DNA of 49,659 nt, taken from positions 1-49,659 of the forward strand of contig JAJXUK010000011.1 of NCBI GenBank assembly GCA_021782915.1, written 5' to 3'. This DNA is from Actinomycetes bacterium (GTDB lineage: Bacteria; Actinomycetota; Acidimicrobiia; Acidimicrobiales; RAAP-2). The translations under genes were made by a program, and so were the position numbers. Of the stretch, positions 15,985-20,710 are shown one piece after another. The notes beneath the pieces were generated by a model. The model was given only the letters and a program-made list of their open reading frames with translations, was not told where the DNA came from and made no database searches. Each line of letters starts with the position of its first letter. Within the stretch, counting starts at the first letter, position 1.

Positions 15985-16653
15985 TCACAGCGCGAGGGCC
16001 ATCTGGTAGACGCGCTCGAGTTCGACTCTCAACTCCTCGGTCTTGGCGCTGATGGCACTGCGCGACACGCGCCCCTCGGCCGTGGGCGGCTCGATCGGCT
16101 CGCCGACGACGATGCGAATGCGTGCGGGGCGCGGCAACCTCTTGCCCGGAGGCATGGCGCGCTCCGAGCCGCCCACTCCCACGGGCACCACCTTGGCCGA
16201 GGTGCGCGCGGCTACGAACATCGCCCCGTCGCGCAGTTCACCGACCGTGCGGCCCTCCTTGCGCGTGCCCTCCGGGAAGAGGACGAGGGCATGGCCCAGA
16301 CGGAGCACCTCCTCGGCCAGAGCCATGCTCTCGCGATCCGCACTACCCCGCCGCACCGGAAAGGCTCCGAGGTGCCAGAGCAACTTGCCGAAGAGCGGCA
16401 CGCGAAAGATTCCGTCCTTGGCCATGAAGAAGACCTTGCGCGGCGAGATGAACAGGGTGAAGGCAAAGTCGACGTTGGAGCGGTGGATCGGTGCGATGAG
16501 CACGGGTCCGCTCAAGGGAATGTTCTCCTTGCCTACCACGCGAGGTCGATAGAGAATCCACGACAGCAGCGTGATCAGTCCCGCCACGGCGCGGTAGACG
16601 GGTGTCTTGCCCGGATTGATTTCGAGCTTCGCTGGACTCACCATCGGTGACAT
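15985..16653 (-). CDS. plsC: 1-acyl-glycerol-3-phosphate acyltransferase family (PlsC-like)
   Basis: A 222-residue membrane-associated acyltransferase. HRSNVDF is the HX4D catalytic motif (block I), AFPVRRGSADRES is block II and LVLFPEGTRKEG is block III (FPEGTR). A hydrophobic stretch, YRAVAGLITLLSWILY, near the N-terminus is the expected membrane anchor. It probably makes phosphatidic acid for phospholipid synthesis, though paralogues acylate other lipids. The ATG at 16653 lies six bases after TAGCCT, suggesting a leaderless message. Its stop lies one base from the stop of the convergent glycosyltransferase gene. Confidence 0.85.
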   Translation of the reverse strand: MSPMVSPAKLEINPGKTPVYRAVAGLITLLSWILYRPRVVGKENIPLSGPVLIAPIHRSNVDFAFTLFISPRKVFFMAKDGIFRVPLFGKLLWHLGAFPVRRGSADRESMALAEEVLRLGHALVLFPEGTRKEGRTVGELRDGAMFVAARTSAKVVPVGVGGSERAMPPGKRLPRPARIRIVVGEPIEPPTAEGRVSRSAISAKTEELRVELERVYQMALAL

Positions 16654-16659
16654 TAGGTC

Positions 16660-16665
16660 AGGCTA
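16660..16665 (-). promoter_or_regulatory. Leaderless -10 box (TAGCCT) of plsC
   Basis: On the minus strand TAGCCT (16665-16660) is followed by GACCTA and the ATG at 16653, the six-base spacing seen repeatedly here. Confidence 0.55.
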
Positions 16666-17182
16666 GATAATCAGGCGGAACCTGACCAGCTGGCTGGACA
16701 TGTTGCTCGGGTGTGCAGATCATCCCGCGAGTTCTCTCCCCGTGCGATCTGATCTACCCAGGCTCACTCCGACAGACGCCGGCGACTTCCGCCGGGCGCT
16801 CAGGACACCTGAGCCTTCAGCATCGAGCAACTACCTAGACCGGGGGCATGTCAGGCGCGGGCCACCGGCTCATCCCGCGGGCGCGAGCACCATCGTCGAC
16901 GCTGACGGGCGCGTCTAGCACGGTGGCCCGCCCGCTGCCTCCGGAGACGTGAGGTGTCCCAGCAACGGGCCGCTCTCCTGGCTGCGAGAAGCCGACTACT
17001 CGACACGAGCGAGCCGAGCACCAGAGCAGACGCACCCGACTGACTCCGAAAGCCAGCGGCTTGGTGCACCCTCGACACCACGCGGTCGCTCGCTGCAGCG
17101 AAGCTGCGCGGAGCAACAGGCACGTGACGCAGAACTGCTGAGGTCCTTTCTCAACCGGAGCCGCTTGAGGCTTCTCTCTGAA
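16666..17182. other. Gene-free interval upstream of mazG
   Basis: About 500 bases with open frames on both strands, but none with convincing composition, start signal or similarity to anything I recognise. It marks the left flank of the AT-richer mazG insert. No repeats or att-like direct repeats were noticed by eye. Confidence 0.4.
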
Positions 17183-17188
17183 TATGCT
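17183..17188 (+). promoter_or_regulatory. Leaderless -10 box (TATGCT) of the mazG-like gene
   Basis: TATGCT, then GGCAGC, then ATG at 17195: exact six-base spacing. This also supports choosing ATG 17195 over the longer in-frame extension upstream. Confidence 0.55.
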
Positions 17189-17194
17189 GGCAGC

Positions 17195-17575
17195 ATGACG
17201 GTTGCCAGTTCTCCCGGTTCGCCGCGAAGTGAGGATGTGACCCTCGAGAGCATCACCCGTGGAGTTCGCCAGCTGCACGACGTTCAGAACTGGCCCAGGC
17301 GACCACCGGAACAGCGGCTCCAGTTTTTGATATCTGAGGTGTTCGAACTCTGGGACGCTCTGGTTGCCTACCGCAATGCCGAGGACACCAAACGCGCCGT
17401 TGACGCCGAGAGGATCAAGGCAGAGGTGGGCAAGGAGATCTTCGACATTCTCTGGAATCTGGCCGATCTAGCCGACACCCTGGGAATAGACCTTGCCTCT
17501 TCGGCGAAAGAAAAGCAGGAAGAGCTGCTGAAACGCGACTGGCGTGAGCATGGTGATCAAACTCACGTATGGTGA
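17195..17575 (+). CDS. MazG-like NTP pyrophosphohydrolase
   Basis: A 126-residue all-alpha NTPase of single-domain MazG/MazG-like size. The metal-binding motif pair is complete: E48-x-x-E51 in SEVFELWD and E81-x-x-D84 in KEIFDILWN, separated by a predicted helical hairpin. Such enzymes split (d)NTPs to (d)NMP and pyrophosphate and clean up nucleotide pools. The ATG at 17195 follows a TATGCT -10 box by six bases. Its codon use is less G/C-biased than that of the surrounding genes. It is convergent with a dUTPase-fold membrane protein, which also relates to nucleotides, so the pair may have arrived together. Confidence 0.82.
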   Translation: MTVASSPGSPRSEDVTLESITRGVRQLHDVQNWPRRPPEQRLQFLISEVFELWDALVAYRNAEDTKRAVDAERIKAEVGKEIFDILWNLADLADTLGIDLASSAKEKQEELLKRDWREHGDQTHVW

Positions 17576-17620
17576 GCGATCTCACAGGGACAACGCAGAC
17601 GTAGCGTCACGGCTACGGCA

Positions 17621-17655
17621 TTGATCTGCGAGCTCAGATTTGAAATGCAGATCAA
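17621..17655. terminator. Bidirectional hairpin between mazG and the dUTPase-fold gene
   Basis: TTGATCTGC (17621-17629) pairs with GCAGATCAA (17647-17655), giving a 9-bp perfect stem with a 17-nt loop between the two convergent stops. Confidence 0.5.
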
Positions 17656-17682
17656 CGGCACGCCGCGGACTTCTAGCCCGCT

Positions 17683-18669
17683 CTACTTCTTGCTCTCGGT
17701 CTTCAACCTCGATCTCGCGAGTACTAGTGGAAGTCCGAGGAGAGTCGCCGACGCCGCAAACGCGACCGCAATGACCGCAACAGAACCCGGCCACGAGTGG
17801 GGCGCAACATTCACCGCTCGATGAACGGTGTTCAGAATCTTGTCCTGACCAAACAAACCCACAAGAAACGTCAGGACGGTACCCAACATGACGGTGCCCA
17901 GCAAGAAATAGCCGAACATGACAACCTGCTTGAGCCCCATAACCTCCCGGACGTTGCCCTCAAGTCGCTCCAGTCTCTGATCCAGATGCTGGCCCACATC
18001 GGCCAACTCAGTCTGCAGTCTCTCTTCGACCTGTCTCGGGCGATTGAAGAGCTCAAGACCTAAGGGAGCCTTCGAATCAAACAGGCCATCTATCGCCCTT
18101 GGTGCCCGCGGAACATTGGATGTTCCCTCCGGCAAGCGTCCAATCACTGGCAGGAATTGGAGGGCCGCAATCGCGGTGACCTCTGGTTCGATGGTTACGG
18201 ACTTACTGCTTACGTTGACAAGAACGAAATGGAGTCGCCTTCCATCTGGCACATCGGATCCGTAGGCCGGATCGACATTCATGCCCATCAACATCAAGAT
18301 GCCACTGATCGCGAAGGTGAATTTGATGCTCACAACGCCGCAGACATTCCGGGCTAGTCTCAGCTTCTCCTTCGATGAGACGAACGCCATTTGACCAGGT
18401 GCGATGTCGAATGATCCACGATGCATCTGGCCTTCTGGATAGCGCTCCGACTCATGTTGAGAGTGATCGCCACTGAGATTGTCCGACGGGATCACCAATT
18501 TTGTTGGTGCCACATGAAGTTCGTACGCGGCGCCCTTGACCGCGCCCGGATCAAATCCGGAGGCAAACAGCTCCGTGTTGAACTGGCGAATGTACTCACC
18601 CGACAATACACCAAAGTCCGGAAACTCTAACAGTGCCGGACCGTCGGAATCATCAACATTGATACTCAC
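17683..18669 (-). CDS. Membrane-anchored dUTPase/dCTP-deaminase-fold protein, predicted catalytically dead
   Basis: A 328-residue protein. Residues 45-178 resemble the Dcd/dUTPase beta fold: YELHVAP, FDIAPGQMAFVSSKEKLRLARNVCGVVSIK, the DPAYGSD loop, then LHFVLVNVSSKSVTIEPEV and LQFLPV. The Dcd catalytic Glu (LEFYN region) aligns with Val and the Arg of KSSLAR with Ile, so hydrolysis or deamination is unlikely; nucleotide sensing or scaffolding is an inference. Residues 212-247 look like a coiled coil, followed by TM helices at about 249-274 and 296-318 and a basic C-terminus. The GTG at 18669 has GGAGG six bases upstream. The gene is AT-richer than its neighbours, suggesting transfer. Confidence 0.65.
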   Translation of the reverse strand: MSINVDDSDGPALLEFPDFGVLSGEYIRQFNTELFASGFDPGAVKGAAYELHVAPTKLVIPSDNLSGDHSQHESERYPEGQMHRGSFDIAPGQMAFVSSKEKLRLARNVCGVVSIKFTFAISGILMLMGMNVDPAYGSDVPDGRRLHFVLVNVSSKSVTIEPEVTAIAALQFLPVIGRLPEGTSNVPRAPRAIDGLFDSKAPLGLELFNRPRQVEERLQTELADVGQHLDQRLERLEGNVREVMGLKQVVMFGYFLLGTVMLGTVLTFLVGLFGQDKILNTVHRAVNVAPHSWPGSVAVIAVAFAASATLLGLPLVLARSRLKTESKK

Positions 18670-18788
18670 TCACAACCTCCATATGCGATATCGGATCAGT
18701 CGAGCCAAGTTCCCAATCAAGATCATCCTGATACGTCAGTATCTAGAACACGGTGGCCAAGCACGCGACACACGCTCTCTACCTCTCT

Positions 18789-19445
18789 TCACTCAAACGC
18801 GTCAACGTGGGTCACCTCATCGACCGCGACGTTGAGCGCGGCGGCCAGAATCTCCAGGCAGATCTTCTCCACTGCGACATCGGTGGTGTCAATGACCAAG
18901 GAGCTGCCGGAGATCTCGAGCGGAGATATCACCCTCTTCGTGTCCGCATTGTCTCGAGCGGAGATGGACTCGATGCCCTCATGTACGCGCCGCCGGGCCC
19001 GCTCCTCGAGCGAGGCGGTGAGAAAGACCTTGACAATTGCCTCCGGAAAGACCACGGAACCGGTGTCTCTGCCCTCCACTACTGCTCTGCCACCCCACGC
19101 GAAGACCAGCTCGCGTTGACGCCGCGCGAACTCCTGGCGCACATCGGCTAACGCAGCGATGCTGTGTACCAGAGCGTTCACATCTTGATGCCGCAGTCTG
19201 TCTAGTGAGGGCATATCTGATTCAGATCGCGAGATGAATGAACGAAAGTCGATACTGTGAGCGACCTGAGTAACTATTCGTGAGTCACTCGAATCCAGCT
19301 CTCTATCTATCAAATCAGCGGTCAGTTTGCGATACATCAAGCCCGTGTCGAGATAGGACCATCCAAGCGCTCCCGCGAGCGCTCGCGCCACGGTCGATTT
19401 GCCAGATCCTGCGGGCCCGTCAATCGCGATAACCACTAGCTTCAC
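18789..19445 (-). CDS. cmk: Cytidylate kinase
   Basis: A 218-residue kinase that phosphorylates CMP/dCMP. IAIDGPAGSGKSTVARALA is the P-loop, SYLDTGLMYRKLT is the CMP-binding segment (normally DTGAMYRA), GRDTGSVVFPEA contains the conserved RD-G core, and the lid is represented by RDNADTKR. The family's usual RD(T/S)xR follows this pattern. GTG (19445) overlaps the aroA TGA as GTGA. It ends the scpA-to-cmk operon. Codon use is less G/C-biased than in aroA upstream, which may mean that the AT-richer tract extends into cmk. Confidence 0.9.
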   Translation of the reverse strand: MKLVVIAIDGPAGSGKSTVARALAGALGWSYLDTGLMYRKLTADLIDRELDSSDSRIVTQVAHSIDFRSFISRSESDMPSLDRLRHQDVNALVHSIAALADVRQEFARRQRELVFAWGGRAVVEGRDTGSVVFPEAIVKVFLTASLEERARRRVHEGIESISARDNADTKRVISPLEISGSSLVIDTTDVAVEKICLEILAAALNVAVDEVTHVDAFE

Positions 19446-20710
19446 AGGAGCAGCTCCAAGTCCTCGAAGAACGCTGGGTAACTGGATGTGATGCTATCAG
19501 CGCCCTCGATCTGGCCCCCATTTCCCGCGACCGCGGCCACCGCACCCGACATGACCATGCGATGGTCCAGTTGCACATTAAGTGAGAAGCTCCTGAACTT
19601 GCCTGCGGAGCCAAGTCCCACCACGAAGAAGTCGTTCCCCTCGCTCCACGCCTCGCAGCCCAGTGCGCGCACCAGGGTGATCGTGCCTTCGAAACGATCC
19701 GACTCCTTCACCCGCAACTCCGCCATGCCGCAAAAAGTGCTGACGCCCTCGGCCGCTGCGGCGGCCACCGCGAGAATGGGCACTTCATCCACCGATGGCA
19801 CGTCAGTCGCGTCAACTATGGTCGCGCGCAGTCCCGAGCTCACGGCGAGCAGCGAGCCGTCAGCTCGGACCTGCACGTCAGCCCCCATGCGCCGCAGCAC
19901 CTCGAGGAAACCGACTCGCTCGGGTGCGTGGTCGATCGGGGAAATCTCGATCCGAGCGTCGGGGTGAAGCGCGCCCAGAACAGCGAAGAACGCCGCTTGC
20001 GAGGGATCTCCCGGTACCCTCCAGCGTCGGCTGCTCGGCCGTCCCGGCACGAGGCGCACACGTCGCCCGGCACCCACGTCGTCGCTGTGCACCAACACCC
20101 CGGCGGTGCGCAACATGTCCTCAGTCGTCGAGCGCGTGCGTACGGCCTCGACGATCGTGCTCGGCCCGTCGCCGACCAGACCGGCGAGCAGGATCGCTGA
20201 CTTGACTTGCGCGCTGGGCACGGGCACCTCGTAGTCGATGGCCCGCAGCTGGGCCCGGCCAGTGACGCGCAGCGGTGCGTGCACCGCGGGCCCCTCGCCC
20301 GATACGGTCGCGCCCATGCGCCGCAGGGGAATCGCAACGCGGTCCATCGGACGCCGCGAGAGCGACACATCACCGATGAGGAGATGCTCGCCGTCGATTC
20401 CCGCCACCAGGCCGGACAACAGGCGCATGCTGGTGCCGGAGTTCTCGCAGTCCAGTGCCGACTCGCTGGACCGAAGCCCCTCGTCCGGGCCCACGACGGT
20501 GAGTCCGGACTGGTCACGGTCCAGTCGCGCGCCCAGCTGTGTCACGATGCGCGCCGTGGCGGCCACGTCCTCGCCGGGTGAGAGTCCCTCAAGCAGGGAA
20601 CGGCCCGACGCCAGAGCGCTCAGCATGAGGGCGCGATGTGAAAAGCTCTTGTCTCCGGGCACGCGCACGCGCCCGCGCAGGCGCGTCGCTCCAGCAACGT
20701 GGCGGATCAC
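19442..20710 (-). CDS. aroA: 3-phosphoshikimate 1-carboxyvinyltransferase (EPSP synthase)
   Basis: This 422-residue enzyme transfers the enolpyruvyl group of PEP to shikimate 3-phosphate. PGDKSFSHRALML binds S3P, CENSGTSMRLLSG is the PEP/S3P motif, RPMDRV follows, SAQVKSAILLAGL is the second-domain motif and the lysine segment ELRVKESDR is intact. The GDKS and SAQVK sequences resemble the class II group, though I cannot type it firmly. The GTG start overlaps tyrA by GTGA. It joins AroH and TyrA in one operon, so chorismate supply and use are co-expressed. Confidence 0.95.
   Translation of the reverse strand: MIRHVAGATRLRGRVRVPGDKSFSHRALMLSALASGRSLLEGLSPGEDVAATARIVTQLGARLDRDQSGLTVVGPDEGLRSSESALDCENSGTSMRLLSGLVAGIDGEHLLIGDVSLSRRPMDRVAIPLRRMGATVSGEGPAVHAPLRVTGRAQLRAIDYEVPVPSAQVKSAILLAGLVGDGPSTIVEAVRTRSTTEDMLRTAGVLVHSDDVGAGRRVRLVPGRPSSRRWRVPGDPSQAAFFAVLGALHPDARIEISPIDHAPERVGFLEVLRRMGADVQVRADGSLLAVSSGLRATIVDATDVPSVDEVPILAVAAAAAEGVSTFCGMAELRVKESDRFEGTITLVRALGCEAWSEGNDFFVVGLGSAGKFRSFSLNVQLDHRMVMSGAVAAVAGNGGQIEGADSITSSYPAFFEDLELLL

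Follow-up and report, generated by a model that had tools for sequence, protein, structure and literature searches.

A predicted membrane-anchored Dcd-like protein belongs to a patchily distributed bacterial family whose genes mostly lie in nucleotide-modification cassettes

Deamination by dCTP deaminase (Dcd) requires a glutamate and an arginine. The protein described here, P0001, is encoded in a 49,659-nucleotide stretch of DNA that we analysed whole (the window), and its closest described relatives are Dcd and the bifunctional Dcd:Dut enzymes (PF22769, TIGR02274). P0001 resembles these enzymes in its predicted fold (Z 18.1 against E. coli Dcd) and in the catalytic Asp of motif 3, but lacks the deaminase Glu (LTLEL) and Arg (SSLGR), adds a coiled coil and a predicted membrane anchor, and scores below the curated cut-offs. 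Two Dcd-type dUTPases of known structure, 8y1w from Thermococcus pacificus and 9ln0, are the best solved matches to the profile of the family of P0001, here named DCD-TM, and they also lack the deaminase Glu. Their solved chains (155-156 aa) stop at the end of the domain, with no anchor, and unlike DCD-TM they retain the SSL..R motif.

Related chemistry is known from bacterial defence. In the DefensePredictor study, 5-hydroxymethyluracil kinase and thymidylate synthase are among the domains of systems that protect E. coli, and aGPT-Pplase, MazG, MazG-C, dUTPase and NMAD domains are predicted, without test, to act in defence (PMC13092281). The validated E. coli systems (5-hmdU kinase, thymidylate synthase, dNMP kinase, NMAD) thus contain enzymes of the HMUDK and thymidylate synthase (TS) types that also occur near DCD-TM genes; the available portion of that text does not say whether these domains occur together in one system, or whether a DCD-TM protein is present. 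The predicted nucleotide-modification systems share kinds of partner domain with the DCD-TM cassettes, and the same portion mentions no membrane-anchored Dcd-like protein, no acyl carrier protein (ACP) or AcpS, and no cassette gene order; the two sets may overlap. BRIGADE ‘base hypermodification’ systems (PMC12458937) were ruled out as a counterpart; in the text available these are 7-deazaguanine clusters in haloarchaea. In the literature searched we found no description of a membrane-anchored Dcd-like protein, which does not establish its absence from print.

Phage thymine-hypermodification genes (aGPT-Pplase clade 1 and relatives) share HMUDK homologues with the DCD-TM cassettes. Relatives of HMUDK were present in 471 phage records, 90 of which cover at least 80% of the query, and one match is annotated as an alpha-glutamyl/putrescinyl thymine pyrophosphorylase. 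The DCD-TM query matched 66 phage records, none over at least 80% of its length; the matches listed (20 of 66) were all Dcd/dUTPase-type or hypothetical proteins. Close relatives of P0001 were found neither in 50,697 phage records nor by a single-sequence scan of viral contigs.

The insert between plsC and cmk

The relevant features of the window are as follows; the names of the flanking genes (plsC, cmk, aroA) were read from their translations, without family searches.

15985..16653, minus strand: plsC, left flank; GC3 0.83; median identity to relatives 69% (63% among relatives)
16654..18788, no strand: insert between plsC and cmk, ~2.1 kb, absent from relatives
17195..17575, plus strand: P0002, short MazG-like pyrophosphohydrolase; ORF of 126 aa, ATG start, convergent with the P0001 gene
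17683..18669, minus strand: P0001, DCD-TM protein; ORF of 328 aa, GTG start; predicted Dcd/dUTPase fold at residues ~20-180, coiled coil at ~211-250, transmembrane (TM) segments from ~255 and ~299
18789..19445, minus strand: cmk, an outlier; GC3 0.66; upstream of the P0001 gene on the same strand
19442..20710, minus strand: aroA, right flank; GC3 0.80

A first-pass annotation, made from the sequence of the window, had placed P0001 and P0002 in an insert between plsC and cmk, and comparison with related genomes bore this out. In all 28 comparable relatives (27 congeners and one other member of the order), plsC directly adjoins cmk, with −16 to 32 bp between their aligned ends; one further relative, whose locus stops before plsC, lies outside these 28 comparisons. 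A homologue of P0001 was present in 0/36 congeners, and at class level three of 395 genomes gave a match, the window’s own genome counted. Matches to P0002 occurred in 6/100 genomes, again with its own counted; the others were weak (best 2.8e-5), as were three matches among 60 congeners (3.0e-4 to 4.6e-4). We concluded that the P0001/P0002 block is an insertion into a conserved cmk-plsC neighbourhood. A search of the insert for terminal repeats gave short or imperfect ones only, and no convincing mobile-element ends.

Both genes had also been described as less G/C-biased than their surroundings. This held for the genes themselves (GC3 0.63 for P0001 and 0.65 for P0002; 11 genes of the flanks have 0.80-0.90), but not for the limits given to the block, 17183-18669: because the adjoining cmk is also low in GC3, the AT-richer block extends past them. 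The window cmk is divergent, with a median identity of 48.5% (maximum 51.0) to the cmk of 29 relatives, which share a median of 70.3% among themselves. It is the sole cmk match in its genome, and nothing closer than the congeners was found as a donor among 396 genomes of the phylum. In 60-residue blocks, aroA matched the relatives’ own level of identity over residues 1-300 and fell below it by 8 and 5 points over residues 301-420, the cmk-side end, where GC goes down to 0.62. Given that identity and GC both drop there, aroA may contain an import breakpoint close to cmk. Most simply, cmk arrived together with the insert, although it may instead have evolved fast in place.

P0001 and the DCD-TM family

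P0001 matched the Pfam DCD family (PF22769) at 1e-5 (26.1 bits, just below the cut-off of 27), TIGR02274 at 7.6e-6 (25.7 bits, far below the cut-off of 92.8) and a PHROG dCTP deaminase at 6.3e-7. Judged by sequence, these matches to Dcd are real, though weak. An AlphaFold model built on a 76-row alignment had a mean pLDDT of 73.7 and a pTM of 0.59; by ten-residue blocks, pLDDT was 75-94 over residues 21-60 and 81-170, and 61-65 in residues 61-80. The top Foldseek match of the model was the Mtb Dcd:Dut enzyme (E 5e-9, probability 1.00), and superposition with VIA-align on a mutant structure of E. coli Dcd aligned 150 residues at an rmsd of 3.0; the titles of the Dcd structures matched by Foldseek include E138 mutants. 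The N-terminal domain is accordingly predicted to have a dUTPase-type beta fold, in agreement with the first-pass annotation. That annotation had further described a coiled coil and, at the C terminus, a pair of TM helices, and the model places a helix at residues 211-288 and another at 295-311, which together hold both elements; hydrophobic segments begin at residues 255 and 299.

At the catalytic columns of Dcd, Glu is replaced by V149 and Arg by I121, the substitutions that had been read from the sequence at the outset, and Asp is retained as D133. The phosphate-binding Ser motif is absent, and the alignment has an insertion in the loop after the Asp.

The fusion of a Dcd-type fold to a membrane anchor is not unique to P0001, which belongs to the widespread DCD-TM family. 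Homologues with the same fusion, which the first-pass annotation had proposed to seek, were collected by scanning 84,980 species genomes (the figure of the tool’s description) with a five-row alignment (A1), from which the best 80 of 83 relatives were taken; the top relative by E-value showed 35% identity over query residues 1-136. With other finds, a DCD-TM ORF was identified in 86 loci, outside which stands L114, with no family ORF. The phyla represented include Pseudomonadota, Bacteroidota, Verrucomicrobiota, Acidobacteriota, Cyanobacteriota, Actinomycetota, Bacillota, Myxococcota and others, and the distribution of the family is patchy and mobile. We aligned 82 members, omitting L007 (not chosen), L038 (selection rule) and L095 and L113 (under 170 aa), and compared them with canonical Dcds from 12 of the 28 loci L008-L035.

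The deaminase Glu was found in 0/82 DCD-TM members (S in 53, A in 27, G in 1 and T in 1) versus 12/12 canonical Dcds, and the deaminase Arg in 1/82 versus 12/12. The catalytic motif-3 Asp, by contrast, is retained in 81 of the 82. For the phosphate-binding SS, the first Ser remained in 8/82 members and the second in 17/82. Exactly one TM segment, as counted by a hydropathy threshold, occurred in 78/82 relatives and in none of the 12 canonical Dcds; the same threshold detected no TM segment in L003, L040, L047 and L102. Among solved structures, the DCD-TM profile best matched 9ln0 (2.2e-25) and 8y1w (1.9e-24), both titled dUTPases and the latter described with dUMP bound; both carry Met in the deaminase Glu column and retain the phosphate-binding SS and the Arg. 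The first-pass annotation had called the domain catalytically degenerate and non-catalytic. The loss of the deaminase residues stands, and ‘degenerate’ is too broad: because the two solved dUTPases closest to the DCD-TM profile also lack the Glu, the sequence is better described as having lost its deaminase residues. Loss of the Glu speaks against deamination, yet is no proof of a dead protein.

P0001 scored 52.0 bits against a profile of the 82 DCD-TM relatives, from which it was left out, and 11.6 bits against a profile of the 12 canonical Dcds. In the tree, the fork between P0001 with the DCD-TM rows and the 12 canonical rows had a support of 100/100; the branch of P0001 is so long (8.36) that its place is unsure. 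P0001 also departs from the family signature K..NVSGFH, with A for K (82/82), M for N (82/82), M for S (82/82) and N for H (80/82), and it has two TM segments instead of the usual one. Because the K/N/S/H signature residues are missing, we term P0001 an outlying member of DCD-TM, probably acquired horizontally.

Genes neighbouring DCD-TM

Neighbours of the DCD-TM genes were clustered by sequence alone and then counted with profiles; genes were called as the longest ORF, so some partners may have been missed or miscalled. Among the 86 loci, six partner families recurred: HMUDK_hel in 51, a MazG-MazG_C type in 49, a TS-like protein in 47, an IrrE-like protease in 44, XRE in 37 and AcpS in 33. 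Seventeen loci had none of the six, which short contigs explain for some. Most DCD-TM relatives sit in a mobile, multi-gene nucleotide-modification cassette. The first-pass annotation had taken P0001 and P0002 for a pair. MazG neighbours are indeed frequent, but a lone pair is not the usual arrangement, since HMUDK_hel is as common as MazG and most relatives lie in larger cassettes.

Partner names were taken from Pfam matches of single members (HMUDK_hel, MazG_C, Peptidase_M78/IrrE, ACPS) and from an annotated plasmid locus, L158. Genes of L158 annotated as nucleotide kinase domain-containing, pyrophosphohydrolase, thymidylate synthase, ImmA/IrrE, helix-turn-helix and holo-ACP synthase matched the six partner profiles, each at 6.1e-44 or better. 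The TS-like representative had no Pfam match, and a four-row TS-like profile reached TS structures with E values no better than 0.12, so that its identity as a true thymidylate synthase was not upheld. One plasmid protein that matches the cluster profile strongly (5.8e-103) is nevertheless annotated as thymidylate synthase, and we therefore use the label ‘TS-like’. When seven ACP-like small ORFs were compared with Pfam, one passed the cut-off, one fell below it and five had no match. At L042:514-1815, a TS-like protein carries a C-terminal AcpS (4'-phosphopantetheinyl transferase) domain, which ties the nucleotide and carrier-protein branches together.

The association was also examined in reverse, in 276 genomes of the family to which the genome of L050 belongs. 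Thirteen contained HMUDK_hel. Four had a strong match to DCD-TM (1.9e-75 or better), in each case with HMUDK_hel ~0.2-2.1 kb away (hypergeometric p ~6e-5, seed genome excluded); 25 more genomes with weaker DCD matches (3.5e-23 or weaker) were taken to hold canonical or other Dcds. Since 9/13 HMUDK_hel genomes lacked a strong DCD-TM, HMUDK also works elsewhere without DCD-TM. Oppositely oriented pairs with weaker DCD-like matches were seen in G873:C35 (3.5e-23 with 5.5e-6) and G825:C9 (4.6e-22 with 4.8e-9), loci L168 and L193.

Nine plasmid records were selected as DCD-TM on identity and coverage, which lie at 39-55% and 74-83%; the other 28 plasmid matches were weaker, and 21 of them are annotated dCTP deaminase. 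Three of the nine carry HMUDK and four the MazG_C type, and 6/9 have either one, compared with 22 and 38 records, respectively, among all 72,556 plasmid records. A TM segment was found in 7/8 plasmid DCD-TM proteins checked, L159 being the one without. Annotated plasmid loci hold varying subsets of AcpS, a small ORF, XRE, IrrE-like, C1 peptidase, UDG, the MazG type, HMUDK and DCD-TM. In an Acinetobacter plasmid record the HMUDK match lies ~12 kb from DCD-TM and is split over two ORFs, and the DCD-TM locus of a Qipengyuania plasmid has none of these cassette partners.

Several other genes were seen beside DCD-TM. On plasmids, an ABC-three-component gene (L158), a caspase gene (L159) and a Shedu gene (L160) lie close by. 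Directly upstream of DCD-TM, and always on the same strand, 15 loci (among them L052:7333-7926, L057:7294-7947 and L159:7426-8007) encode proteins of ~140-220 aa that form one family; the L052 member, the sole one tested, had no Pfam match, and the family is possibly a dedicated DCD-TM partner. Six loci of Bacillota or deltaproteobacterial type (L087, L091, L097, L098, L103, L104) had 0/6 cassette families, and near some of these lies a radical-SAM-looking cluster, present in six loci and named by eye. TIR-like proteins form a 7-locus cluster near DCD-TM (e.g. L094:10264-10758, L107:6520-6990), and the L094 member matches the PADLOC ThsB model at 2.4e-44.

PADLOC (2023) returned no families for P0001 or P0002. 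Among ten cassette or neighbouring proteins, it recognised an IrrE-like protease (capP, RmrA) and a TIR protein (ThsB), and more weakly an Nmad2 protein and a single DCD-TM; the core cassette proteins tested had no convincing model. For the two proteins themselves, the defence role suggested at the outset is one of association only. Because most DCD-TM relatives adjoin genes like those of phage thymine modification, we consider a bacterial defence role of the family plausible by association.

The MazG-like gene of the window differs from that of the cassette. Its metal-binding motif is complete (E48xxE51, E81xxD84), but it matches the MazG family only weakly (Pfam MazG 0.011, 16.5 bits, cut-off 22; no NCBIfam match). 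P0002 scored only 14.8 bits against the cassette MazG model and had no MazG_C match, and phmmer, run against the genes from all 86 loci, gave 3.1e-4 at best; by sequence, then, it is not of the cassette type. Searches of the plasmid and phage collections gave no match at E 1e-3, and no second locus with an exact P0001-P0002 type pair was found. The window’s own genome (97% complete) yielded no HMUDK_hel or MazG_C, with control genomes positive for HMUDK_hel in 3/3 and MazG_C in 2/3, and no TS-like, AcpS, IrrE-like or XRE gene was seen in 16654-18788. With no HMUDK_hel or MazG_C match in its genome and a neighbouring MazG of another type than the cassette’s, the window copy has the appearance of an orphan. 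It may respond to nucleotides that others produce, act together with P0002 or lie idle.

Possible roles of DCD-TM

Our tentative reading, to which we give a probability of roughly 0.4, is that DCD-TM proteins are nucleotide-binding sensor/effectors at the membrane that act in phage defence, and that P0001 is an outlying, horizontally acquired member. It draws on the predicted fold, the loss of residues, the predicted anchor, the patchy, mobile distribution and the association with the cassette. We infer that the Dcd-like domain would be trimeric, as in its relatives, and would face the cytoplasm at the inner membrane. There it would bind a deoxyuridine- or thymidine-type nucleotide that is modified or unbalanced during phage infection, and the coiled coil would relay the nucleotide state to the helices in the membrane, as a sensor/effector output. 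The window copy would act alone or with P0002, on nucleotides made elsewhere, because the two cassette enzymes searched for, HMUDK_hel and MazG_C, are missing. Counted against this reading are the missing family residues and second TM segment of P0001, its genome without those two enzymes, the 17 loci without partners, the nine HMUDK_hel genomes without a strong DCD-TM, the core cassette proteins without a convincing PADLOC model, and the catalytic Asp, whose retention leaves room for an enzymatic role. A more specific version, which we consider unlikely, assigns DCD-TM proteins to a widespread bacterial immune cassette, as its sensor/effectors at the membrane. With the chemistry of thymine hypermodification (TS-like, HMUDK, MazG-MazG_C, ACP/AcpS), the cassette would produce or monitor a pyrimidine nucleotide that carries a modification. 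Nucleotide binding by the deaminase-dead dUTPase fold would then open or disrupt the membrane, and the window copy would be a stripped-down form, without modification enzymes, that senses phage-made nucleotides.

The enzymatic role is the main rival: DCD-TM would be a membrane-tethered, dUTPase-like pyrophosphatase which, together with MazG, removes modified pyrimidine dNTPs or channels them. The Asp in nearly all members and in P0001 fits such an enzyme, as does the finding that the best solved matches are Glu-less dUTPases, one of them with dUMP; both, however, keep the phosphate-binding SS and the Arg that DCD-TM has mostly lost, and P0001 has its loop insertion after the Asp, so that we hold this reading to be somewhat doubtful. 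For the window copy alone, a decaying or idle import is also conceivable, a fragment recombined in with a foreign cmk and now without function. The lack of HMUDK_hel and MazG_C in the genome, the lost family signature and very long branch, the divergent low-GC3 cmk alongside and the slightly odd cmk-side end of aroA all suit decay, but the frame of P0001 is intact over 328 codons with coding-type GC by codon position, its domain, coiled coil and TM parts are all retained, and the neighbouring MazG motif is complete; on balance such an import appears improbable. The partnership proposed by the first-pass annotation, a two-gene system of sensor and nucleotide-depleting enzyme, fares worse. P0001 and P0002 do share one insert, both are dNTP-related, and MazG is a frequent DCD-TM neighbour, but the genes are convergent, the exact pair did not recur, and P0002 lacked plasmid or phage matches. 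Because P0002 is not the cassette’s type of MazG, the partnership is unproven, and we rate this system as quite improbable. That the block was joined into the contig from another organism during assembly seems very improbable indeed: the assembly is a draft of 84 contigs and the GC3 change is sharp, but the 4-bp overlap of aroA with cmk is operon-like, and the genome holds no second cmk match.

If the sensing or the killing in these cassettes falls to DCD-TM proteins, this would explain the bacterial use of phage-like base-modification enzymes as immunity, and the dUTPase fold would join the membrane-linked nucleotide receptors. The cassette is found on plasmids and on genome contigs of many phyla, and complete, testable versions of it therefore exist.
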